A stretch of DNA of 64,000 nucleotides, taken from the NCBI GenBank assembly GCA_019359045.1, contig JAHHIA010000017.1, positions 1 through 64,000 of the forward strand, read 5' to 3'. The translations under genes and the position numbers were made by a program. Under the pieces are notes generated by a model that did not search any database, was not told the origin of the DNA, and was given only the letters and a program-made list of their open reading frames with translations. Origin of the DNA: Scytolyngbya sp. HA4215-MV1 (GTDB taxonomy: Bacteria; Cyanobacteriota; Cyanobacteriia; Leptolyngbyales; Leptolyngbyaceae). Shown piece after piece: positions 18,105 to 49,650 of this stretch. Numbering within the stretch: the first letter of the stretch is position 1; each line of letters starts with the position of its first letter.

Positions 18105-20246
18105 ATGACATCCATGAATGATTTTCCACGTCCTTACCATGTACCATCGGGAACACGGGAATCGCGCCGTCATACGCCCAAGGTGGAAATGAAAGGGCTG
18201 TATCAGCGAGCGATTAAAGAATCATTTGTTAAACTTAACCCTCGGATTCAAGTCAGAAACCCGGTCATGTTTGTGGTCTGGGTGGGTACCCTGGTAACGC
18301 TCCTGCTCACGTTCGATCCCAATTTGTTTGGAACGCTGCAAGCTGACATCAGCCAGCAGCGATTGCTCAACGGATTGATCACGTTCATTCTGCTCTTCAC
18401 AATTGTCTTTGCCAATTTTGCGGAAGCGGTGGCTGAAGGACGGGGGAAAGCGCAAGCTGATGCACTACGGGCAACTCGCAGCGACACGATCGCCAAGAAA
18501 ATTTTGCCGACTGGCGGCGTTCAAGAGGTTAGCTCTACTGAGCTTCGCCGAGGTGATCAGGTCAAGGTGGTTGCTGGAGACATGGTTCCGGCGGATGGCG
18601 AAGTCATTGCAGGGATTGGCTCTGTAGATGAATCTGCCATTACTGGAGAGTCGGCTCCTGTTCTCAAACAACCTGGAACCGATATCGCCAGTTCAGTTAC
18701 TGGAGGAACACGCCTCCTATCTGATGAACTGACGGTGCGAATCACCACTGATCCAGGACAAGGTTTTATCGATCGCATGATTGCCCTGGTAGAAGGCGCA
18801 GAACGCACCAAAACTCCAAACGAAATTGCGTTAACCGTGCTGCTGGCAGTATTAACACTAGTATTTCTGATTGTGGTGGCAAACATTCCACCCATTACAG
18901 GTTACATTGCAGGCTTTCTGAGCACAGCAAGCAGCGAACAAGCAGCGGCGGATCTGCGAAATGGAGCCAGTGTTGCCATCATGATCTCGTTGCTGGTGGC
19001 ACTGATTCCCACTACGATCGGGGGGTTGTTAAGTGCGATCGGCATCGCCGGGATGGATCGCGTTGCCCAATTTAACGTGATTGCTACCTCTGGACGGGCC
19101 GTAGAAGCTTGTGGCGACATCAACACTCTGGTACTGGATAAAACAGGCACGATTACCCTCGGTAACCGTTTAGCTGCCGAATTCATTCCGGTAAATGGAC
19201 ATAGTTTACAAGACGTTGCCCAGGTTTCCTTAGACGCTAGCGTGTTTGATGAAACACCGGAGGGACGATCGATCGTGGCATTGGCAGAGCGATCGGGGGC
19301 AAAGGCTAGTTTTGATCCGAATCTGGCTGAAGGGGTGGAATTTTCTGCCAGAACCCGCATGAGCGGTACAGATTTGGATGGCAAAGAGATCCGGAAGGGA
19401 GCAGTCGATGCGATTCGGGGCTTTGTGCGATCGCGGGGTGGACATGTTCCCAATACCTTAGATGCAGCCTATGAGCGAGTTTCCAAATTAGGGGGTACAC
19501 CGCTTGCCGTTTGTCAGAATGATGATATCTACGGCGTGATCTATCTCAAAGACACGGTTAAACCTGGACTCAAGGAACGGTTTGATCAACTGCGACGGAT
19601 GGGTGTACGCACCATTATGCTCACAGGAGATAACCGGATTACTGCCTCGGTGATTGCTGAGGAAGCAGGAGTCGATGACTTTATTGCCGAAGCCACTCCC
19701 GAAGACAAGATTGAGGTGATTCGCAATGAACAGGCACAGGGCAAGCTAGTTGCCATGACGGGAGACGGCACCAATGATGCCCCGGCACTGGCGCAAGCGA
19801 ATGTAGGGTTGGCAATGAACTCTGGAACGCAAGCAGCAAAAGAAGCTGCCAACATGGTGGACTTAGATTCTGATCCTACGAAGCTAATTGATCTGGTGAC
19901 GATCGGCAAACAACTACTGATTACCCGTGGTGCCCTCACGACCTTCTCCGTTGCCAACGACATCGCCAAATACTTCGCAATCATTCCCACTATCTTCGCT
20001 GCCACAGGCATTGGCGCACTCAATGTGATGGGGTTGAAGAGTGCTAGCTCTGCCATCATTTCAGCCCTGATTTATAATGCGCTGATCATTTTGGTGTTGA
20101 TTCCTCTGGCGTTGAAGGGAGTGCAGTTTAGACCCCTCACTGCGGATCAACTGTTGCGGCGCAATATCTTAATCTATGGCGTTGGCGGAGTGATTGCCCC
20201 ATTCATTGCCATCAAATTGATTGATGTAATTCTGCCATTTTCCTAG
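18105..20246 (+). CDS. kdpB: K+-transporting P-type ATPase subunit B (KdpB)
   Basis: The ATP-hydrolysing subunit of KdpFABC, a class I P-type ATPase of 713 residues. Landmarks are the TGES actuator loop ([10 protein letters not shown]), the phosphorylation site DKTGT with D345 ([13 protein letters not shown]), the nucleotide-binding domain, and the hinge [13 protein letters not shown]. Seven or so membrane segments are distributed as in the family. The N-terminal ~35 residues ([14 protein letters not shown]) are a cytoplasmic extension, as usual in cyanobacteria. It lies directly behind kdpA, so the two are co-transcribed. Confidence 0.97.
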
Positions 20247-20251
20247 TCTCT

Positions 20252-20328
20252 GTAGGTTGGGTTGAGGTACAAAACCCAACGCTGATGTTTCTGAAATGTT
20301 GGGTTTCGCTTTGCTTCACCCAACCGAC
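20252..20328. repeat. GTAGGTTGGGTT dispersed palindromic repeat, copy 2
   Basis: Inserted between kdpB and kdpG/F. Starts GTAGGTTGGGTTGAGG, has internal AACCCAAC...GTTGGGTT arms and ends CACCCAACCGAC. It forms a stem within the operon transcript. Confidence 0.7.
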
Positions 20329-20349
20329 AAAAATCTCCCCATCACATTT

Positions 20350-20625
20350 ATGAAACTGACTCATCTACAACGAAACTTGCCTCAAGGATCTTCTCAGATG
20401 CTTGAAACGATTGCCGAAATTGGCTCTGAATGGCGCAGACAAAAGTTGCCACTCTATCTGTTTTTAGGGTTGTGCTTTAACTTAATCTTGGCTCCAGCAG
20501 TCTTTGCGGCTACAAGTGGTAACTTGTCACGCACTCAGGCTTACTGGCTAGGAGCATTGGTAATTTTGACCGTTGCCCTTGCGATTTATCTCTTTTTTGT
20601 CATGTTTGTACCGGAGAGGTTCTAA
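20350..20625 (+). CDS. kdpG: KdpG/KdpF-like small Kdp membrane subunit
   Basis: A 91-residue protein between kdpB and kdpC, the position of kdpG in Anabaena kdp operons. A cytoplasmic ~40 residues (MKLTHLQRNLPQGSSQMLET) precede two hydrophobic segments, about 38-52 and 63-85. The second ends ALAIYLFFVMFVPERF, which resembles the KdpF subunit (YLxxxLLxPERF). It is therefore likely a KdpF equivalent with an N-terminal extension that stabilises KdpABC. Its stop codon overlaps the kdpC ATG by one base (TAATG). ATG 20350 is chosen because upstream codons lie in the repeat. Confidence 0.82.
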   Translation: MKLTHLQRNLPQGSSQMLETIAEIGSEWRRQKLPLYLFLGLCFNLILAPAVFAATSGNLSRTQAYWLGALVILTVALAIYLFFVMFVPERF

Positions 20626-21266
20626 TGAGTTTTGCACGTGAAGCGAGTAGAGCCGTTCGTTCTACCCTGGTGCTCTGGGTTCTGACGGCAATTATCTATC
20701 CTTTTGGCATGATTGGGATTGGGCAGCTTGTCTTTCCCTTTCAAGCCAATGGCAGTATTATTACTAACACTCAAGGTCAGCCTGTCGGGTCAGCGTTAAT
20801 TGGACAACCCTTTACCAGCGATCGCTACTTCAACAGTCGCCCCAGTACGACCAGCTACAGCACCGCTGATCCGAAAAAGGATGAGGCAAAGGTGCTACGA
20901 ACTGGAGTTTCAGGCGCAAGCAACCTAGCTCCCAGTAACCCAGCTTTGATTGATCGCATTAAAGGGAAAGCTGATCCGAACCCAGAAAAGGAGATCGAAG
21001 GTGTCATTCCTAGATTGCAGAAAGCGGGCGTAAAACCAACAGCTGATCTAGTTTATACGTCTGGCTCCAGCCTTGACCCTCATATCACCCCAGAAGGGGC
21101 AAGAGCACAAATCGCACGAGTCGCAAAAGCCCGCGGACTGCAACCCAACCAGCTTGAGAATTTAGTTAATCAGAACACCGATGAGCGCTCTTTAGGCATC
21201 TTTGGTGAACCGGGTGTCAATGTGCTGAAGCTCAACCTGGCGCTTGACGCGTTTAAACCTGCATAA
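20625..21266 (+). CDS. kdpC: K+-transporting ATPase subunit C (KdpC)
   Basis: A 213-residue subunit with a single N-terminal membrane helix (about 15-35) and a periplasmic/soluble domain that assists ATP binding and complex assembly. Recognisable family segments are GQPFTSDRYFNSRPSTTSY, TSGSSLDPHITPEGA and FGEPGVNVLKLNLAL. It is the last gene of the operon. No kdpD or kdpE follows, unlike some cyanobacterial operons. Confidence 0.96.
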   Translation: MSFAREASRAVRSTLVLWVLTAIIYPFGMIGIGQLVFPFQANGSIITNTQGQPVGSALIGQPFTSDRYFNSRPSTTSYSTADPKKDEAKVLRTGVSGASNLAPSNPALIDRIKGKADPNPEKEIEGVIPRLQKAGVKPTADLVYTSGSSLDPHITPEGARAQIARVAKARGLQPNQLENLVNQNTDERSLGIFGEPGVNVLKLNLALDAFKPA

Positions 21267-21344
21267 GCGCAATTTCTAAAGAAGGGGAAGCGCGCTTGCT
21301 ATTCATGTCTTTCCCCTTCCCAATCCTCTTCAAAAAACAACACT

Positions 21345-21470
21345 TTAGACTTGTTGGGAAATAAAACCGACTATTTGACAGGGTTGGGGACACTCCGCTC
21401 CGGTCTGCACCATTGCCGTGGCTAATGCCTCATCCACAACGTGACAGACAAATTCATCCACTTCTTGCAC
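21345..21470 (-). CDS. possible small ORF or remnant in frame after paoC
   Basis: A 41-codon GTG-started frame (VQEVDEFVCHVVDEALATAM, then VQTGAECPQPCQIVGFISQQ) lies downstream of the paoC stop and in the same reading frame. It contains three cysteines and looks like coding sequence rather than noise. It could be a C-terminal piece detached by a nonsense mutation, or a separate small gene. I recognise no family. Confidence 0.3.
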   Translation of the reverse strand: MQEVDEFVCHVVDEALATAMVQTGAECPQPCQIVGFISQQV

Positions 21471-21488
21471 ATTGCGGAGTGGTTTAAT

Positions 21489-23702
21489 TCACAGAAGCTT
21501 GTCCAATGTGAGCGGCAAATCTCGGACGCGCTGACCTGTGGCGTGATAGACTGCGTTAGCGATCGCTGCTGCTGAGCCAGTAATCCCAATTTCGCCAATG
21601 CCTTTGACGCCGATCGGATTCACATGAGGGTCCTGTTCATCCACGAAGATGACGTCGATCGACGGCACATCGGCATTCACCGGGACGTGATACTCCGCCA
21701 GATCTGCGTTCACCACCCGCCCCCGATTGGGGTCCATGACGGTGTGTTCCATCAGCGCCATGCCGATGCCATAGACAATGCCGCCAATCAATTGACTATT
21801 GGCAGTTTTGGCATTCAGCAGGCGACCAACCCCAAACGCTCCCACCCAACGGGATACGCGCACTTCTCCAGAGTCAGGATTCACCCGCACCTCAACAAAC
21901 TGCGCTCCAAACGAGTGCATCGAGTACTTGTCTTTTTCCTCACCGGGTTTGGCATCTGCCCGCGCTTCGATCGTCTTCAATCCGTGTCGCGAAAGGATTG
22001 CACCGTAGGTTTCGGCGTTTGCCGCTTTATTTTTGAGCAAGAATCTGCCGTTCTGGGCAATCACGTCCTCAGCCGTGGCGCCATACAGCGGGGACGCCTG
22101 ATCCATTAGCGCCAATTGCAGTAGCTTACTGCGGGCTTCTGTTCCAGCTAAATGCACAGCTGAACCGACGCTTGCTGCTGTTTGGGAACCGCCGGAGACG
22201 GGAGTTTCGGGCAGATTGGTATCACCCAGCTCAAACTGGATTTGCTCGGCAGGCAGCCCCAGCGCGTCGGCGGCGATCTGAGTCATAACGGTATAGGTGC
22301 CCGTGCCAATGTCCTGAGAACCACTACGCACCACGGCCGTTCCATCTGCCTTGATCTGGGCGATCGCCGAGGCCGGAGAGCGGTTGGTGGGATAGGTTGC
22401 GGTTGCCATGCCCCAACCGATTAACGTGTTGCCATCGCGCATCGATCGCGGCGTGGGATTGCGCTTTTGCCAGCCAAAGCGTGCTGCCCCCTGCTGGTAG
22501 CATTCCCGCAAGGATTTGCTCGACCAGGGCAATTTTTTATCGGGATCGAACTCCGCATAGTTTCGCAGACGCAACTCGATCGGATCAATTTTGAGCGCAT
22601 ACGCCAGTTCGTCCATTGCCGATTCCAGGGCAAACGACCCGGATGCTTCGCCGGGTGCCCGCATGTAAGTCGGCGTCCCTACATTCAACCGCACCAGACG
22701 ATGACTGGTCTCGATGTGCGGGCAGGCATAGATCATGCGAGCAGTCTTGGCGACAGGTTCAATAAACTCATCGAACGTGGAGGTGATGGAGGTTCCGGCG
22801 TGCCGCAGTGCCGTCAAATTGCCCTCGCGAGTCGCACCTAAACTCACCTGCTGCATCGTTTCGGGTCGAAAGCCGACCGGGCCAAACATTTGCATCCGCC
22901 CCAGCACCAGTTTCACTGGACGGTTAACCTGCCGTGCTGCCATCGCCGTTAGCACCACATGCGCCCAGGTCGAACCTTTGCAGCCAAAACCACCCCCGAC
23001 AAAGTAAGACATAATGCGGACATTTTCTGGCGGCATCCCCAGCACTGCCGCTACCTTTTTCTTCGCGCCAAACACGCCTTGCGTGGCGTCATATAGCAGC
23101 AGCCGATCGCCTTGCCACACGGCGGTAGTGGCGTGGGGTTCCATCGGATTGTGATTCTCAATGGGCGTGGTATAGGTTTGCTCCACTTTCACGGCTGCCG
23201 TTGCGAGTCCTTGCTCAACACTGCCATGAGCCGAATCGGGTGGCTGATCGCGGGGAATTTTCCCCTGGGGGACATACGCCTGGTCGAGATGTTCCTTCAG
23301 GTGCAGCGCTGGCTGCTCCTCGTCGTAACGGATATTAACCAGTGCTGCCGCCTGCATGGCATGCTCAAACGTGTCGGCAACCACCACCCCAATGTGTTGA
23401 CCGCTGTAGCGCACCTGGTTATCTTGCAGCAGCGGCAGTTTGCGATCGCCGCCTGCCTCGCCAGACACCTTCGGGGCGTTGAGGTGGGTCATGACCAGCA
23501 GTACACCTGGTACGCGCTCGGCAGCACGGGTATCGATCTGGGCAATTTTGCCGCTGGCGATCGTGCTTTGAATAGTGACGCCATGCACGAGCTTGGCAAC
23601 CGGAAACTCCGCTGAATAGCGGGCTGCGCCTGTTACCTTTGCATGTCCATCCACGCGGTTGAGCGGTTTGCCCACCACACTCTTCATATCACTTGAATTC
23701 AT
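21489..23702 (-). CDS. paoC: periplasmic aldehyde oxidoreductase molybdenum subunit (PaoC/YagR-like)
   Basis: The molybdopterin-cytosine-dinucleotide catalytic subunit of a xanthine-oxidase-family enzyme, 737 residues. The family spine is present: GxAxYSAEF near residue 30, YFVGGGFGCKGS (Moco loop), PTYMRAPGEASGSFALE, QDIGTGTYTVMTQI, and the C-terminal GVKGIGEIG with the putative catalytic base E704. In E. coli PaoABC this subunit oxidises aromatic aldehydes in the periplasm. It has no signal of its own, so it would be carried by the Tat signal of the small subunit. Its ATG overlaps the stop of the FAD-subunit gene by 4 bp. The cofactor needs MCD, hence the relevance of mocA and xdhC at 50-51.7 kb. 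Confidence 0.92.
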   Translation of the reverse strand: MNSSDMKSVVGKPLNRVDGHAKVTGAARYSAEFPVAKLVHGVTIQSTIASGKIAQIDTRAAERVPGVLLVMTHLNAPKVSGEAGGDRKLPLLQDNQVRYSGQHIGVVVADTFEHAMQAAALVNIRYDEEQPALHLKEHLDQAYVPQGKIPRDQPPDSAHGSVEQGLATAAVKVEQTYTTPIENHNPMEPHATTAVWQGDRLLLYDATQGVFGAKKKVAAVLGMPPENVRIMSYFVGGGFGCKGSTWAHVVLTAMAARQVNRPVKLVLGRMQMFGPVGFRPETMQQVSLGATREGNLTALRHAGTSITSTFDEFIEPVAKTARMIYACPHIETSHRLVRLNVGTPTYMRAPGEASGSFALESAMDELAYALKIDPIELRLRNYAEFDPDKKLPWSSKSLRECYQQGAARFGWQKRNPTPRSMRDGNTLIGWGMATATYPTNRSPASAIAQIKADGTAVVRSGSQDIGTGTYTVMTQIAADALGLPAEQIQFELGDTNLPETPVSGGSQTAASVGSAVHLAGTEARSKLLQLALMDQASPLYGATAEDVIAQNGRFLLKNKAANAETYGAILSRHGLKTIEARADAKPGEEKDKYSMHSFGAQFVEVRVNPDSGEVRVSRWVGAFGVGRLLNAKTANSQLIGGIVYGIGMALMEHTVMDPNRGRVVNADLAEYHVPVNADVPSIDVIFVDEQDPHVNPIGVKGIGEIGITGSAAAIANAVYHATGQRVRDLPLTLDKLL

Positions 23703-25292: not shown

Positions 25293-25711
25293 AGGTTCAC
25301 ACTTAAGTTTGTTGCCTGAATATTAGAAAAGCTGTTGTAGTAATAAATCTATCTATTGACAGAGGTTATGCGAGTCAAACACATCTGTCGCTACGAGAAC
25401 CAACAATAAGCTATACCAACGTGATTGTTTTGTCTGCCATTAAGATTGTTTCTTGTTCTATCAGTTAAGTGCAAGATTTGAGTTAGCTCAAGTCTTGCAC
25501 CATTCTCAATAGGGGTTGCCAAAGGAGACAAAATCAAGAAAGGGCGTAGGAAAAAACAGCAGACGAGCGAGCCAAAGAGTTAGTACTCATCTATCACTAT
25601 AGGAAGAAGGATTAAGAAATTTAAACCGTTACCTTAAGGTATCTCTGCTGTGAATCTTGAGCATTGATTTAAGTTTTGAGCACTGACAGATCAAATACAA
25701 GGGAGTTTACG
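25293..25711. other. divergent intergenic region paoA / DUF4383 gene
   Basis: About 420 bp expected to hold both promoters. A hairpin at 25469-25500 has 14-nt arms (GTGCAAGATTTGAG / CTCAAGTCTTGCAC, one G-U pair) and a 4-nt loop, without a U-run. No gene is visible. Confidence 0.55.
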
Positions 25712-26149
25712 ATGAAAGCAGGGCAGTACTTTTCTTTGATCTCTGGCGTCTTTTTTCTGGTTCTTGGAATTATGGGGCTTATCCCCGGACTGGTTCATTA
25801 TACTGAAGCAACCTCCAGTGTAAGTGATGCGTACGGCATGGGATACGGTTACATCTTAGGCAGTATTCCGACTAATGGAATTCACGATTTCATTCGCATT
25901 GTTTTTGGGTTGTTAGGGATCCTAGCATCCATTTCACTAGCTAGTTCTCGCACTTATAGTCGTGCCATCACAGTTTTCTATGGACTATTTGCGGTGCTAG
26001 GGTTGATTCCTTATGCCGACACATTGTTCGGTACAGTTCCAATTTTTGGCAGTGACGTTTTGGTCCATGGCTTAAGTGCTGTGATCGCCTTTTACTTCGG
26101 ATTCCTTGCCTCACCGGGGCTTTTGGAATTGTCTAGTGATCAGCCTTAA
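25712..26149 (+). CDS. DUF4383 four-TM membrane protein
   Basis: A 145-residue integral membrane protein with four hydrophobic segments, about 6-27, 55-76, 84-105 and 112-135. Conserved elements are a first helix with GxFFLxLGIMGLIPGL, then NGIHDFIRIVFGLLGI and VHGLSAVIAFYFGF, which match the DUF4383 pattern. The function is unknown. ATG 25712 (MKAGQYFSLI) is preferred over an upstream frame extension because GGGAG lies at the right spacing. It is divergent from paoABC and followed by a strong hairpin at 26230-26276. Confidence 0.78.
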   Translation: MKAGQYFSLISGVFFLVLGIMGLIPGLVHYTEATSSVSDAYGMGYGYILGSIPTNGIHDFIRIVFGLLGILASISLASSRTYSRAITVFYGLFAVLGLIPYADTLFGTVPIFGSDVLVHGLSAVIAFYFGFLASPGLLELSSDQP

Positions 26150-26229
26150 GTCAAGAAGCGCTCTAGCATTGGGTCTTAAAAGGCTACATGGAATAGGGTA
26201 ACCAGTCCAGGCTGGGTGCTAATGATTCC

Positions 26230-26276
26230 GTGAATGGTGGGGGATAAGGCGTGAGGCGCTATCCCCCACCATTCAC
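26230..26276. terminator. 17-bp perfect hairpin between convergent genes
   Basis: Arms 26230-26246 and 26260-26276 (GTGAATGGTGGGGGATA and its exact complement) with a 13-nt loop. Placed between two convergent genes, it probably ends transcription from both sides, although no long U-run follows. Confidence 0.6.
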
Positions 26277-26357
26277 TATGTCTGTGGCATTGCTTAGTTT
26301 GCGGTATTGCTCAACAACACCTTTATGCTAATTCAGTAATGCCAGCATGAACGCCTG

Positions 26358-26966
26358 CTATCTTGCGCTGGAATGAGACACACCATGCTGTGTAGAAAGA
26401 GCCATGCGTAAGTGATCTCGTAAGGTTGGTAAGGTTTGGGCTGCCCAGGCTTTTACCTCAAGATCTTGCCCCTGTTGAGCTTCCTTTTCAAACAGAGAGA
26501 CTGTTTTTTGATGATCCATGACCATTTGGTTCATCAATGCCCGATCAAACGCTGTACCCGAAAGCTTAGATAGTCCTGCTTTTGTTGCTTTATTCTGAGT
26601 ACCCGTGTCTGTTGGAATAGGGATTCCCTTTTGAGATGCTAACTGTTTAAGTTGGTTGTTTGCCTGAGTATGGTCTTTAACCATGTGTTGCCCAAAGCTT
26701 TTCACCACAGAACTGGAAGCTTTCTGCATAGCGAGTCTTCCCAGTTCCACTTCTGCCATTCCGCCTTGAGCCGCTTGCATCACAAATTGCTGATCTTGAG
26801 AACGGATTTCGCTGTGATTGGCATCTGTCGATGGGCTCGAAGTGGATTGAGTCAATTGGGCAGGAGGCTAGGCAGGCTGATTTGCTTGAGATGGTGTATT
26901 GCAACTGGAAAATGCAGGCAGGACGATCGCTGCAAAAATAATCACTGGTAAGCGGTTCTTCAACAT
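26358..26966 (-). pseudogene. DUF4142 lipoprotein gene with in-frame amber codon
   Basis: The DUF4142 domain (ferritin-like helical, periplasmic; EIRSQDQQFVMQAAQGGMAEVELG, then VKSFGQHMVKDHTQAN, then ALMNQMVMDHQKTVSLFEKE) is intact from about codon 55. Upstream in the same frame is a clear lipoprotein signal starting at ATG 26966, MLKNRLPVIIFAAIVLPAFS followed by lipobox Cys22 (LPAFSSC). After codon 32 a TAG at 26868-26870 interrupts the frame. The linker then continues in frame (PPAQLTQSTSSPS). Translation from an internal TTG (26855) would give a signal-less cytoplasmic protein. It is either a recent pseudogene, a sequencing error or a readthrough case. Confidence 0.8.
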
Positions 26967-26998
26967 TTTGAGTTCTCCTTAAAAAACGATGGTTTAAA

Positions 26999-27936
26999 TC
27001 AATTGCCGAACTTTATCTGACAGGAGGGTGAGTGCGCTCTTTTGTCGATTTGGCTCCCCTCGTACCAACGATTCAGCCAGCTTTGTCGCCTGATCGACTG
27101 TGACTTTGCGGGGAGGAGCGGTTCCAATGGATCAACGATCGATTCCACAATTACCGAACCCAGTGTTGCCAGTAGCCGAGCCAAAATCCTTCCACAGGTT
27201 GCTGGATCATCAGTCGTGAAACCTGTAGCCCCACTGCCATTGCAAACGCCGCAAAGTTATTTCTTCAAGTTCACAACCGTATTCTGGATTGCCCAAGAAT
27301 ACCATCTGTTCCCATTCCATCTGACCTAAGGAGCCGTCCTTGCTCATCACCCCTTTGATCGGCAGCCGATATTTTACACAAGTGATAAAATCTGCCATCA
27401 ACCTAGAAAAGCCCCGTCACCAACAATGTCAGGCACTGCTAGCAAAGTAATAATTTGCTGCCACAATTACGTCTATCGAAAGCATGAAGTCCAAACTTGA
27501 AGTATTGTGAGCGTGATATAGCGATCCTATCTGGATTGTGAAAAAGAGTTCCTGTGGAACTCTTTTTCACAGAGCCTTTCTCATTCACAAATGGTTTAGG
27601 ACTGCTATAGCGATGGAACAGGAATCCGAGCAGATGCAGGCGATTCGGAATCAAGCGACGTAGGCGACACCTGTGAATGGGGACGATCGATCAAGGTTTG
27701 ATTACGTCCATCGGGAATTAAGACGATATCCGTGACGGGTAATTAAGAACGTTAGGTTCACTGCATAAATCATCATCGAATTCCCTGATAAACTCTACCC
27801 GTAGGGACTCAAGCTGTTTTTTACCCAATTGAACACCATATATAAATTTGCCTAAAGTGGGGATGAATCTTCATTCGTGCGATACACTTAGAGCCAGGTT
27901 TTCATACCTAAGAGTACAATTCCTAAATCGTGCATT
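26999..27936. other. decayed region with short coding-like fragments
   Basis: No intact gene. Several minus-strand pieces look like broken coding sequence: one ends at about 26998 (RKVTVDQATKLAESLVRGEP then a tail DKVRQLI), one at 27210-27401 (WEQMVFLGNPEYGCELEE), and one around 27605-27870 reads KKQLESLRVEFIREFDDDL then, after a frame change, TDIVLIPDGRNQTLIDRPHS. I recognise none. A perfect hairpin lies at 27538-27570. Confidence 0.4.
27538..27570. repeat. perfect 15-bp hairpin (terminator-like)
   Basis: Arms 27538-27552 and 27556-27570 (GTGAAAAAGAGTTCC and its exact complement) with loop TGT. The stem contains an A-run and a T-run on opposite arms, as in bidirectional terminators. No intact gene adjoins it. 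Confidence 0.7.
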
Positions 27937-27966
27937 GTGGCGGAAGCCACCCCAGGCAGGCTCAAG

Positions 27967-30648
27967 ATGGAATACTGGGAATTTTTGTTGCAACAAGAGG
28001 GCGATCGCATCTGGCTACCGCTGGAATCGCCCAATGTTGAGATTTTGGAGGGACGATATCGCATCGTTGCCCGCTCCAGTCGGATTAATACTAATGTCGA
28101 AATCCGGATTAGCCATGAAGCGATCGACGAGGTGCCGCCCAAACGCCGCATCCAAAAGCGCATGGGGCGAACCAATCGAGAAGGCTTAATGGTGGTGATT
28201 CCCTATACCCGCCTTCAGGCAGGCATTTGGCATTTGAGCTGCTTGGGAGACGTGATGTCAGACTTCATGGGTGACAACTGGAAGTACACGGTCAACCTGC
28301 AAGTACTGCCCAGCGAAGCAGAAATGGAAGAATGGGAAACTCCCTGGCATCCTTTAGACGATTCAGCCGAGGATTCAGCCGAGTTTAAATTGTCCAAAGA
28401 TTCATCGGCGGCGGTATTGGGGACTGCCTCTCGGTGGCGAGAAACGTTGCCCAAGACGACGATCTCAGCCATCTCTGATGCTTCCGTTACCAGTGAGACT
28501 GCTCCCAGCGAAGCGATCGCTGCCATTGGGGTCAATCCGAACGCCGCATCCAACCCGCTTCCAGCACCTGAAGCGATACTGGCTGAAAACGTGGCTGAAC
28601 CCGATGCCATGTCTCAATCGGAGGTCACACCGCCATCGCTAACCGACGTTGATCCAGAAATTAGTCGGGCGATCGGGTCTTCTATGGAGCAATTTCTGGA
28701 TGTGGCAGAGCAAATGTCGCAACACTTGGTCAACCAGGTCTTTCAATCGTTTGACCAGGAAACTGGATTAAATACGATTCCAACGGGACAAACATTGGTC
28801 GATCGAGAAACCTCAGATAACGAGTCTGAGGCATATGACTTCGACGCACCCGACCATGTGTTGGAATTGGCTTCTACCGCAACTGGACTGACCCTTCCCA
28901 CTCAACTCAATTTGGACGCCGATTCTGCCATAGATCGAGAAACCGAGGTAGACGCTGCTGACGCCAATACTCATGACTGGGATGCGGTTGATCTGGGGAC
29001 TGTTGCCTCAGTACCCACGGTTTCAGCCGCTACCCGCTCCATGCCTGCACGATCTCTGTCACTCTCCTTAGATCAACCTGCCTATGTGGCACATCGGGGA
29101 CAACCCCTGCTGTTGAGCGGTCAAATCACAGAAGCGGAACCCACGGCGTTCTCTGACCCTTGGATGCAAAGCTCCCTCCTGTCCGCAGAACTCCATGTCT
29201 CTCTGCAAGATCCCCAAAGTTCTGCACAACTGGTCGAAATCAACCAACCGATTTCAGCCCAGTCTTTACCCTATGCTTTTAGCTGCGCTTTGGAGATGCC
29301 AGCCGACCTGCAAACCCGTCTGGCTTTAGGAGAAGTGGTGCTATACAGTACGGTGGCTCCAGGAACGGCACTAGTTGCCCAATCTTTTACGGTGACGGTA
29401 GATGTAGATGAATTGTTGGGTGAGTTGGCGCAGATTAACCAGTTGCTGAAAGCGGAGACGGAATCAACCGATAAGCTCGAACTTCCCTTAGAAATGGCAG
29501 ATCAACCGATGAGATCGCCACTCGAATCGGATTATCTCAAGCTTTCTTTCCTCTCGTCTGAAGACGATGCCACGGCTCCTCGTTCCAGTCCCTTTCCCTT
29601 TTTGGCTGGTCACCCCTTGCCGCCCCAACTCTACCAACCCGACCCTGCCAAAGCCGATCGCAAAGGACTGGATTTACCACAGTTTCGTCCACTCCAAGAC
29701 AATGAACCTGTTCCTGCTGATTCAGCCGAAGTCAACGACACCGCAGAGATGCCGTCTGCTTCAGACGAGATCATGTCCTCATCGGAGACATCGCCATTCA
29801 ATCCTGAGATCGAGACATTTCCCCCTGACGCATCCCATTCAAAACGACCAACGGTTTCTCCCTTAGAACGAGAAATTCCTGCGTTTGGCAGTCAAGATGA
29901 AGCCTTTGCGACTCGTAAACCGACTTCATCTATCAAAACGATCGCCGAACTGCAAAGCCTTTCTCCCGAAACGATCGCATTTCGCTCCCTCAGATTGCAA
30001 GAGCGCTTTTGGACCCGGCTCAACTCTCTGGCATCCGATGCAGAACTTTCGGAGTGGCTCAGAAACAACTTGCAGGCAGCGGGGGTTTCCCTGCCACCTC
30101 GATGGGCAACCTCATCCGCACCGGTGACTTCGCTCTCCGAAAATCTGGCGACCCATGAATTTGTTGTAGAGGATGAGCCACCCACTCCGGTGCAAAACCT
30201 CAGAGATGCCTTTGGACAAAGTCAACGATCGCTCCAAACAGAGGCAGCAACTGCTGCTTCATCCACATCCGCTGTGCCCGATGTTGAACCCGTACCCACT
30301 CCCATTTTGGAAGTCACCACCCAAGAACTAATTTCGGGAGAACCTGTTACTGTTCGGGTGAGGCTCCCTCGTCCAACATCTCGCATTTATGTCAAACTCT
30401 GGATTAACGATTGCCAAACACGCTTATTGTTGGATGGACCCCGCTTACTGACCGACTTTTTACCCATGAGTTCAGGAGAATTGGAAGCAACGGTTCAACT
30501 CACCGTTCCCTACGGCAGCCTAGAGATTCGATTTGAAGCGATCGCCCTTGATATGCAAACCCAGCGTGAAAGCCACAAAACTACTGTCATACGGCACATC
30601 ATGCCACCAGGTCTACCCAACTCATCAATGGATGAATTTGAGCCATAA
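27967..30648 (+). CDS. large conserved cyanobacterial protein of unknown function
   Basis: An 893-residue protein from ATG 27967 (MEYWEFLLQQEGDRIWLPLE); a GTG ten codons upstream is also in frame. The N-terminal ~115 residues look folded and conserved (LEGRYRIVARSSRINTNVEI, MGRTNREGLMVVIPYTRL, MSDFMGDNWKYTVNLQVLP). A long acidic, Ala/Ser/Thr/Pro-rich segment that is probably disordered follows. Around 360-480 lies a beta-rich domain (LSLSLDQPAYVAHRGQPLLL). The C-terminal ~110 residues form another beta-rich Ig-like stretch (VRLPRPTSRIYVKLWINDCQ). There is no signal peptide or membrane helix. I recall homologues only in cyanobacteria. The function is unknown. Confidence 0.75.
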   Translation: MEYWEFLLQQEGDRIWLPLESPNVEILEGRYRIVARSSRINTNVEIRISHEAIDEVPPKRRIQKRMGRTNREGLMVVIPYTRLQAGIWHLSCLGDVMSDFMGDNWKYTVNLQVLPSEAEMEEWETPWHPLDDSAEDSAEFKLSKDSSAAVLGTASRWRETLPKTTISAISDASVTSETAPSEAIAAIGVNPNAASNPLPAPEAILAENVAEPDAMSQSEVTPPSLTDVDPEISRAIGSSMEQFLDVAEQMSQHLVNQVFQSFDQETGLNTIPTGQTLVDRETSDNESEAYDFDAPDHVLELASTATGLTLPTQLNLDADSAIDRETEVDAADANTHDWDAVDLGTVASVPTVSAATRSMPARSLSLSLDQPAYVAHRGQPLLLSGQITEAEPTAFSDPWMQSSLLSAELHVSLQDPQSSAQLVEINQPISAQSLPYAFSCALEMPADLQTRLALGEVVLYSTVAPGTALVAQSFTVTVDVDELLGELAQINQLLKAETESTDKLELPLEMADQPMRSPLESDYLKLSFLSSEDDATAPRSSPFPFLAGHPLPPQLYQPDPAKADRKGLDLPQFRPLQDNEPVPADSAEVNDTAEMPSASDEIMSSSETSPFNPEIETFPPDASHSKRPTVSPLEREIPAFGSQDEAFATRKPTSSIKTIAELQSLSPETIAFRSLRLQERFWTRLNSLASDAELSEWLRNNLQAAGVSLPPRWATSSAPVTSLSENLATHEFVVEDEPPTPVQNLRDAFGQSQRSLQTEAATAASSTSAVPDVEPVPTPILEVTTQELISGEPVTVRVRLPRPTSRIYVKLWINDCQTRLLLDGPRLLTDFLPMSSGELEATVQLTVPYGSLEIRFEAIALDMQTQRESHKTTVIRHIMPPGLPNSSMDEFEP

Positions 30649-42061: not shown

Positions 42062-42227
42062 AAAAGTTGCTCCTCACACTTTGGCAGAAACGGTGAAGTT
42101 TTCAACTGAAACCTTACCGCATAGGCATCCTACCCCAGTTCTAGGTCATTGGGAAAGATGCGGAGGGGGCCTGTCGTGGACTGAGGCATTTTGTTGTAAC
42201 TGTTTTCTAGCGCAGCGGCGCACTAGC

Positions 42228-42297
42228 GCGGGGGCTAAGGAGGGGATTTCTGAGTGCTCAATATCACAGCTAACACCTCTTAAACAACCTCTGAGGC
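42228..42297. repeat. dispersed element shared with 16230-16302, copy 2
   Basis: GCGGGGGCTAAGGAGGGGAT, then TTCTGAGTGCTCAATATCACAG, then TAACACCTCTTAAACAACCTCTGAGG. It aligns over about 65 bp with the copy before kdpA and likewise follows a GC-rich palindromic stretch (CTAGCGC..GCACTAGCGC). Confidence 0.65.
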
Positions 42298-42379
42298 ATT
42301 GCTTTCCTTCTTCACTTTGCGTTGCAGGAAGGCAACCCCTTCTGCCATCCGTTTTTCCCAGGAATCGACTGTCATGAGG

Positions 42380-42722
42380 GAGACAACCTGCCTTTTTCTT
42401 GCTTGAACCGCAGCCTAACCGCGCTTCATCTACCGTGAGGTTTATCCGTTTGGCGGCAATCACCGCTGTCACCTGCCGCAGCCGTTCTTAGCTCATCGAC
42501 TTAGCCAGGATGGCATAGGCTTCGCCAAAGGAGTTGATGCGATCGATGAGATCCATGTCGAGTTCTGTAGCCGATAGGGCAAACTACCGTGCTCCATCAA
42601 TGAGGGCAGTGTTTTTCGCCGCATCGCTACTACTGAGATTAGTCACATCGGCATTGGTGATATATAGCCGCGTGTAAAGTGACTCCCACGGTGGCTTGAA
42701 CCGAACCGTAGGAGGAAGACAT
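42380..42722 (-). pseudogene. broken unknown gene (one frameshift, two stops)
   Basis: A coding-like minus-strand sequence starts at ATG 42722 (MSSSYGSVQATVGVTL). It shifts frame near 42675, then reads LYTRLYITNADVTNLSSSDA, AKNTALIDGAR, TAG (42584-42586), FALSATELDMDLIDRINSFG, EAYAILAKSMS, TAA (42488-42490), and ERLRQVTAVIAAKRINLTVD. Codon composition and continuity across the stops argue for a decayed real gene of at least 100 codons. I do not recognise the family. The 3' end merges with repeat DNA. Confidence 0.5.
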
Positions 42723-49069: not shown

Positions 49070-49650
49070 TCACTTCTCCATTGCGATGAGCCGCCGAATG
49101 CCGAACTGAACGATGCGCTCATAGTCGAGGGGCATTGGCTCGGCCGACAATTCCGCGTCAATTGGATGGATGCAATCTCTGTGGTCGGCGATCGCATCGA
49201 GCGTTGCTCCCGGTCTAATCCTGGTTTGAGGTCAAACGCCGCATCCAGGGCATAGAGCCAGAAATAGTAATGGTGCAGTCTATGTCCGGGCGGGGGCGCG
49301 GGTCTGGTATAGCCTGGTTTGTTGGCGCTGTTCACGCCTTCGCTAAATTTGCTACCTTCTGCTTCTGCAACGCGATCGACCGTTGCCGGAATTCCATACA
49401 GCAGTCAGTGCGTAAACCCACGTGGCATTGGCGCATCTGGGTCGTAGCAAATCAATGCTAGCTCTTGAGTTCCGGCTGGTAGTCCACTCCAGGCTAATGG
49501 CGGTGAAACATTATCGCCTTTACTGGTGTAGCGTTGCGGAATACGATCGAGCGTTGTAAACGCAAGGCTACTAATTCGCAAATCCTTGGGGTTCGACCCC
49601 ATTGCCACCTTCCTTTTGCTGTTTAAACTAGACGAGTGCGTCATCTTCAC
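49070..49650 (-). pseudogene. PEBP-family (YbhB/YbcL-like) gene with nonsense codon
   Basis: The YbhB/YbcL phosphatidylethanolamine-binding-like sequence is clear: SLAFTTLDRIPQRYTSKGDN, VSPPLAWSGLPAGTQELALI, CYDPDAPMPRGFTH. A TGA then replaces the expected Trp codon. The frame continues LLYGIPATVDRVAEAEGSKF, GYTRPAPPPGHRLHHYYFWL and YALDAAFDLKPG. Near 49210 the frame changes, and the family's final (I)GTYRR motif is absent. It is inactive in its present form. The start would be ATG 49650 or the internal MGSNPKDLR. Confidence 0.75.

Follow-up and report, generated by a model that had tools for sequence, protein, structure and literature searches.

A premature TAG in a DUF4142 lipoprotein gene of Scytolyngbya sp. 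HA4215-MV1: probably a recent nonsense pseudogene in a decaying locus

Results

The interrupted gene

The window, the whole 64,000-nucleotide stretch of DNA that was analysed, carries on its minus strand a DUF4142 lipoprotein gene with one in-frame stop. The features of the locus are collected in Table 1. Translation of the gene gave 32 residues (MLKNRLPVIIFAAIVLPAFSSCNTPSQANQPA), a stop, a further 169 residues and the terminal stop. The initiator ATG at 26966 is preceded by a seven-base Shine-Dalgarno match at eight-base spacing, which is a strong site. The first 22 residues have the layout of a lipoprotein signal, a hydrophobic stretch followed by a lipobox with its cysteine (...LPAFSSC); the corresponding residues in the copy from Kovacikia minuta are ILSSC. 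Under the lipobox rule, phenylalanine at position -3 is tolerated, not typical. An export signal is present, yet the TAG parts it from the DUF4142 domain and the two do not lie in one uninterrupted frame. Such an uninterrupted frame of signal and domain is usual in the relatives and lies outside the Pfam definition of DUF4142.

Table 1. Features of the DUF4142 locus and its flanks, in window coordinates
Feature	Position	Strand	Remarks
Convergent DUF4383 gene, intact	25676..26149	+	neighbour
Very stable hairpin	26230..26276		z -8.6; unique in the genome; in the gap between the DUF4142 gene and its convergent neighbour
DUF4142 lipoprotein gene with one in-frame stop	26358..26966	-	ATG 26964-26966; terminal TAG 26358-26360
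DUF4142 domain	26400..26798	-	Pfam; five-helix model, like DUF305/CopM structures
TTG, first possible start past the stop	26853..26855	-	without Shine-Dalgarno match
Premature TAG, codon 33	26868..26870	-	in Pro/Gln/Ser-rich linker between lipobox and domain; frame open in closest relative
Lipoprotein signal peptide, lipobox-like FSSC	26901..26966	-	Cys22 at 26901-26903
Shine-Dalgarno-like TAAGGAG	26975..26981	-	8 nt before the ATG; start region common to the Kovacikia relative
C-terminal remnant of a thiamine-pyrophosphate-dependent enzyme (pyruvate-oxidase-like), truncated and frameshifted	26994..27413	-	three-frame translation, Pfam, plasmid matches
Palindromic dispersed repeat, about 88 bp	27513..27600	-	100 bp past the remnant's end; present at 20 other genomic sites

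The Pfam match to DUF4142 (PF13628) lies entirely past the stop. It scored 159.5 bits against a cut-off of 27 and covers positions 2-135 of the 138 in the profile, so that membership of the family is supported over nearly its full length. AlphaFold2 modelling of the part from the TTG onward, with an alignment of 19 sequences, gave a confident five-helix model (mean pLDDT 91.5, pTM 0.84). The nearest solved structures found by Foldseek were a DUF305 fragment (PDB 3bt5) and the cyanobacterial copper-binding protein CopM (5fej and 5ffc). The overall helical fold is alike (TM 0.70-0.75 by query), but identity in the Foldseek matches is 16-19% and the likeness is one of fold and sequence scores only. 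The sequence match is weak (E 0.036 in the PDB search; 27.2 bits for Pfam DUF305, at its cut-off of 27), and the best Pfam family of the protein is DUF4142, not DUF305.

Comparison with relatives

The closest relative is carried by the Kovacikia minuta CCNUW1 plasmid NZ_CP083583.1. It aligns over residues 1-201 with 55% identity and has no stop inside. The copy has the same arrangement of signal with lipobox, Pro/Gln/Ser-rich linker and full domain, and a stretch around the start codon, AGGAGAACTCAAAATG, is common to both genes; the Kovacikia frame is open from start to end, whereas the window's gene has TAG at codon 33. Judged from the sequence, the interrupted locus is one gene with a nonsense codon, because the closest relative is open throughout with the same signal and start region. 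A signal-like open reading frame joined by chance to a domain was considered and is ruled out by the full-length open relative and the common start region. The preliminary description had placed signal, lipobox and DUF4142 in one frame interrupted only by the TAG, and the translation, the Pfam match and the open relative confirm this. It had also proposed that a single-base change accounts for the stop and that codon 33 should be compared with the closest relative; since the Kovacikia frame carries no stop there or elsewhere, one substitution is indeed enough. The surroundings of the two genes differ, in that the Kovacikia gene has upstream of it a transposase frame, which we take to be IS110-like, and the window's gene adjoins an enzyme remnant.

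A search of 388 genomes drawn from the class, with up to eight candidates scored per genome, found a DUF4142 gene in 63, the window's genome included; in the order-wide search a match was found in 20 of 42 genomes, again with the window's genome among them. Three matches were flagged for stops. In two of these (G064 and G122) the stops follow the natural C-terminus, and no tendency of the family to carry internal stops was seen. The window's gene is the only one in the 63 matching genomes with a stop inside the gene, and none of the others has one at the same place, as a recoded codon would require; for many matches the alignment starts past the linker, and codon 33 itself was compared in the nearest relatives alone. 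The window's gene thus shows the mark of a nonsense pseudogene, an in-frame stop that is absent from the relatives and removes the conserved domain.

When a crude hydropathy rule was applied to 58 distinct relatives, 54 showed an in-frame hydrophobic segment ahead of the domain, and on this ground the family is taken to be normally exported. A motif resembling a lipobox was recognised in only 12 of them. One metagenome-assembled relative outside the class-wide count (L029) has an open frame without a signal-like segment; its gene may itself be interrupted or shifted upstream.

Decoding of TAG and starts past the stop

The possibility was considered that the TAG is read through. The genome has at least 114 tRNA matches, with 150 of 386 candidates scored. 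Among the tRNAs that ARAGORN called in the stretches holding these matches, none has the anticodon CTA, TTA or TCA; the call was confirmed match by match in the four longest stretches only. Five matches in these four stretches received no call, and their anticodons were read as three His, one Val and one Leu. Release factor RF1 is intact and scored above its cut-off. TAG terminates 13 of 39 long stop-to-stop frames in the window, frames that were picked by length, include the second part of the DUF4142 gene itself and probably frames of broken genes, and need not all be genes. The DUF4142 gene itself also ends in TAG. Neither a suppressor tRNA nor a reassigned TAG was thus found, and recoding of TAG across the genome is ruled out by the lack of a CUA tRNA among those called, the presence of RF1 and the use of TAG as a terminator.

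Three long tRNA arrays were observed in the genome, on contigs C30 (approximately 18297-22516), C14 (134234-137493) and C23 (733751-737431), with 34, 23 and 22 tRNAs called, respectively. One array is on a contig of 28.9 kb, possibly a plasmid. Plasmids carrying tRNA arrays are mentioned in an excerpt of PMC9679502.

None of the possible starts past the stop has a Shine-Dalgarno match above four bases, and the nearest, the TTG at 26855, has none at all. Further on, the most favourable is an ATG within helix 1, with a four-base match at four-base spacing. The preliminary description had left the cell a choice between lost export on one side and readthrough or an internal start on the other; the first is the likelier, and the other two found no support in the tRNA calls, RF1, the terminal TAG and the want of a good ribosome-binding site.

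The upstream flank

The same description had regarded the flanks as free of other damage, which is wrong. A truncated and frameshifted enzyme remnant lies directly upstream, and two more genes in the window are broken. The last sense codon of the remnant is 30 bp before the ATG of the DUF4142 gene and its stop codon ends 27 bp before it. A piece of the remnant matched Pfam TPP_enzyme_C at 19.7 bits, just under the cut-off of 21.9 (E 0.0008). The pieces obtained by three-frame translation were searched separately against 72,556 plasmid records. The first matched 82 records, with thiamine-pyrophosphate enzymes and a pyruvate oxidase among their annotations; 14 were matched by the middle piece, which lies in another frame, at a laxer limit of E 0.01; and the last matched a single record, from Sinorhizobium sojae, which was also the record matched by all three pieces. 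An open Sinorhizobium sojae frame and an annotated Azospirillum thermophilum protein align along 26997-27413 with identities of 41% and 43%. Both open enzymes align by their last 140 residues alone, and the remainder of the gene is missing at the window's locus. A search of the window's genome at E 0.001 gave no second copy of the first piece.

The thiamine-pyrophosphate enzyme and DUF4142 were also considered as a conserved gene pair, and this was rejected. No DUF4142 match occurs in the flanks of the two open enzyme copies (3 and 4 kb on each side), and the transposase frame upstream of the Kovacikia gene speaks against such a pair. The palindromic repeat beyond the remnant has a stem of about 16 bp, and its copies are 73-98% identical, some of them partial.

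The hairpin between the DUF4142 gene and the convergent DUF4383 gene is perhaps a terminator, though it lacks a T run. Across 25600-28000, no Rfam match at E 0.5 or below was obtained, the promoter/terminator scan found no terminator-like site, and promoter-like sites numbered 5 compared with 3.4 (sd 1.9) in shuffled sequence.

Other broken genes in the window

When the window was scanned for stops inside coding-like frames, the DUF4142 TAG ranked fourth. Two of the three higher ranks were the in-frame TAA and TGA of a Mutator-family transposase (PF00872; 52003-53094, minus strand). The third was a TAA at 42488-42490 within the frame 42146-42583, also on the minus strand, where codon usage is coding-like on both sides. 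The next rank below the DUF4142 TAG was the in-frame TGA at 49405-49407 of a phosphatidylethanolamine-binding-protein (PBP) family gene (PF01161; 49150-49650, minus strand), and three-frame translation revealed a frameshift past that TGA. Since stops of all three kinds break genes in the window, ordinary decay is favoured over a special role for TAG.

Age of the lesion

The window's domain and the intact Kovacikia domain were each scored against 57 other relatives. The window's domain scored higher in 48 comparisons and lower in 9, the relatives not being independent of one another, and because it outscores an intact domain so often, it shows no loss of constraint. Unconstrained drift was also simulated. 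With indels set at 5% of substitutions, the share of runs in which both halves of the gene stayed unbroken was 35% at 2% divergence and 6% at 5% divergence; without indels the corresponding values were 63% and 31%. The scores and the simulation together indicate that the lesion is young, or an error, or that the cell still uses the domain. Among the genomes searched there was no other from the window's genus, and the age of the stop is therefore bounded by the simulation alone.

Discussion

The best reading of the locus, to which we give a probability of about 0.8, is a recent nonsense pseudogene in a decaying locus. In its working state the gene, translated from the ATG at 26966, would have specified a lipoprotein for export that carried the helical DUF4142 domain, until a recent nonsense mutation at codon 33 inactivated it. 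Ribosomes starting from the strong site would now make only a 32-residue peptide of signal and linker before they stop, and the DUF4142 domain would not be made in useful amounts and would not be exported. The present intactness of the gene would reflect the youth of the lesion, not continued use, and the loss would be part of a wider decay in which the upstream gene had already become a frameshifted stump. We infer that the TAG is present in the DNA of the living cell, is recent and later than the decay of the neighbour, and leaves no functional product; the frame, the stop, the signal, the intact domain, the relatives without the stop and the damaged neighbour were seen directly. Young nonsense pseudogenes of bacteria typically have one stop in an otherwise undamaged frame, open relatives and decaying neighbours, as the window's gene does. 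Against this reading, an unbroken, high-scoring domain and an intact signal are equally expected of a working gene.

One alternative is that the living gene is intact and the TAG is a sequencing or assembly error. The stop is known from the assembly consensus, in which an error would mimic a TAG; one wrong base would suffice, and the gene looks functional in its signal, linker, domain and start site alike. However, the assembly, of 33 contigs, has a completeness rating of 99.99%, the 39 long stop-to-stop frames span 47 kb of the 64-kb window, and the stump, the stops in the transposase and the TGA and frameshift in the PBP-family gene look like real decay. An error is accordingly considered unlikely. 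The persistence of the domain has also been weighed as a sign that it is still made, as a cytoplasmic protein, from an internal start past the stop. The TTG 12 bases past the stop codon would yield a 165-residue protein with the whole domain, a domain that has not decayed and that, in a high-confidence prediction, folds in the absence of the signal. But this TTG has no Shine-Dalgarno match and the best later ATG has four bases at a spacing of four, compared with seven at eight for the real start; moreover, the family is normally exported. Such an internal start is quite improbable. We consider slightly less probable again an elaboration of it in which ribosomes reinitiate at the TTG: the DUF4142 protein would have changed from an exported lipoprotein to a helical bundle in the cytoplasm, and the same message would also yield the 32-residue lipopeptide precursor.

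Least probable of all is that a suppressor tRNA or leaky termination lets ribosomes pass the UAG and make the full exported lipoprotein. In favour of this, nothing else interrupts the frame before or after the stop, the stop falls in a linker, where the identity of the inserted residue would be of little consequence, and the tRNA complement is large, with three arrays. On the other hand, none of the tRNAs called carries an anticodon for a stop codon (with 150 of 386 candidates scored), RF1 is intact and TAG also ends this very gene. TAG is not the codon that breaks the two other genes, whose stops are TGA and TAA. Furthermore, an internal stop occurs in none of the other matches, codon 33 having been compared in the nearest relatives alone. 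These observations leave the recent nonsense pseudogene as the preferred reading.

As to what the intact protein may have done, CopM is described in an excerpt of PMC4335983 as periplasmic and extracellular, and the DUF4142 relatives resemble it in being exported. By analogy, a metal-binding role outside the cytoplasm would be a guess. No title or abstract containing the term DUF4142 was present among the literature matches listed. Searches on DUF4142, premature stops and readthrough in cyanobacteria, pseudogenes and nonsense mutations, CopM and DUF305, tRNA arrays and suppressors likewise returned no title on this gene among the matches listed.

The interruption was correctly seen but is ordinary, and it matters little beyond annotation. 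There, a gene finder would probably call either a DUF4142 protein without a signal or a 32-residue peptide, both of them misleading. An undamaged domain and signal are no argument for readthrough unless the flank has been searched for remnants in other frames. The locus is most likely a freshly broken ordinary gene and not a new way of reading the genetic code.
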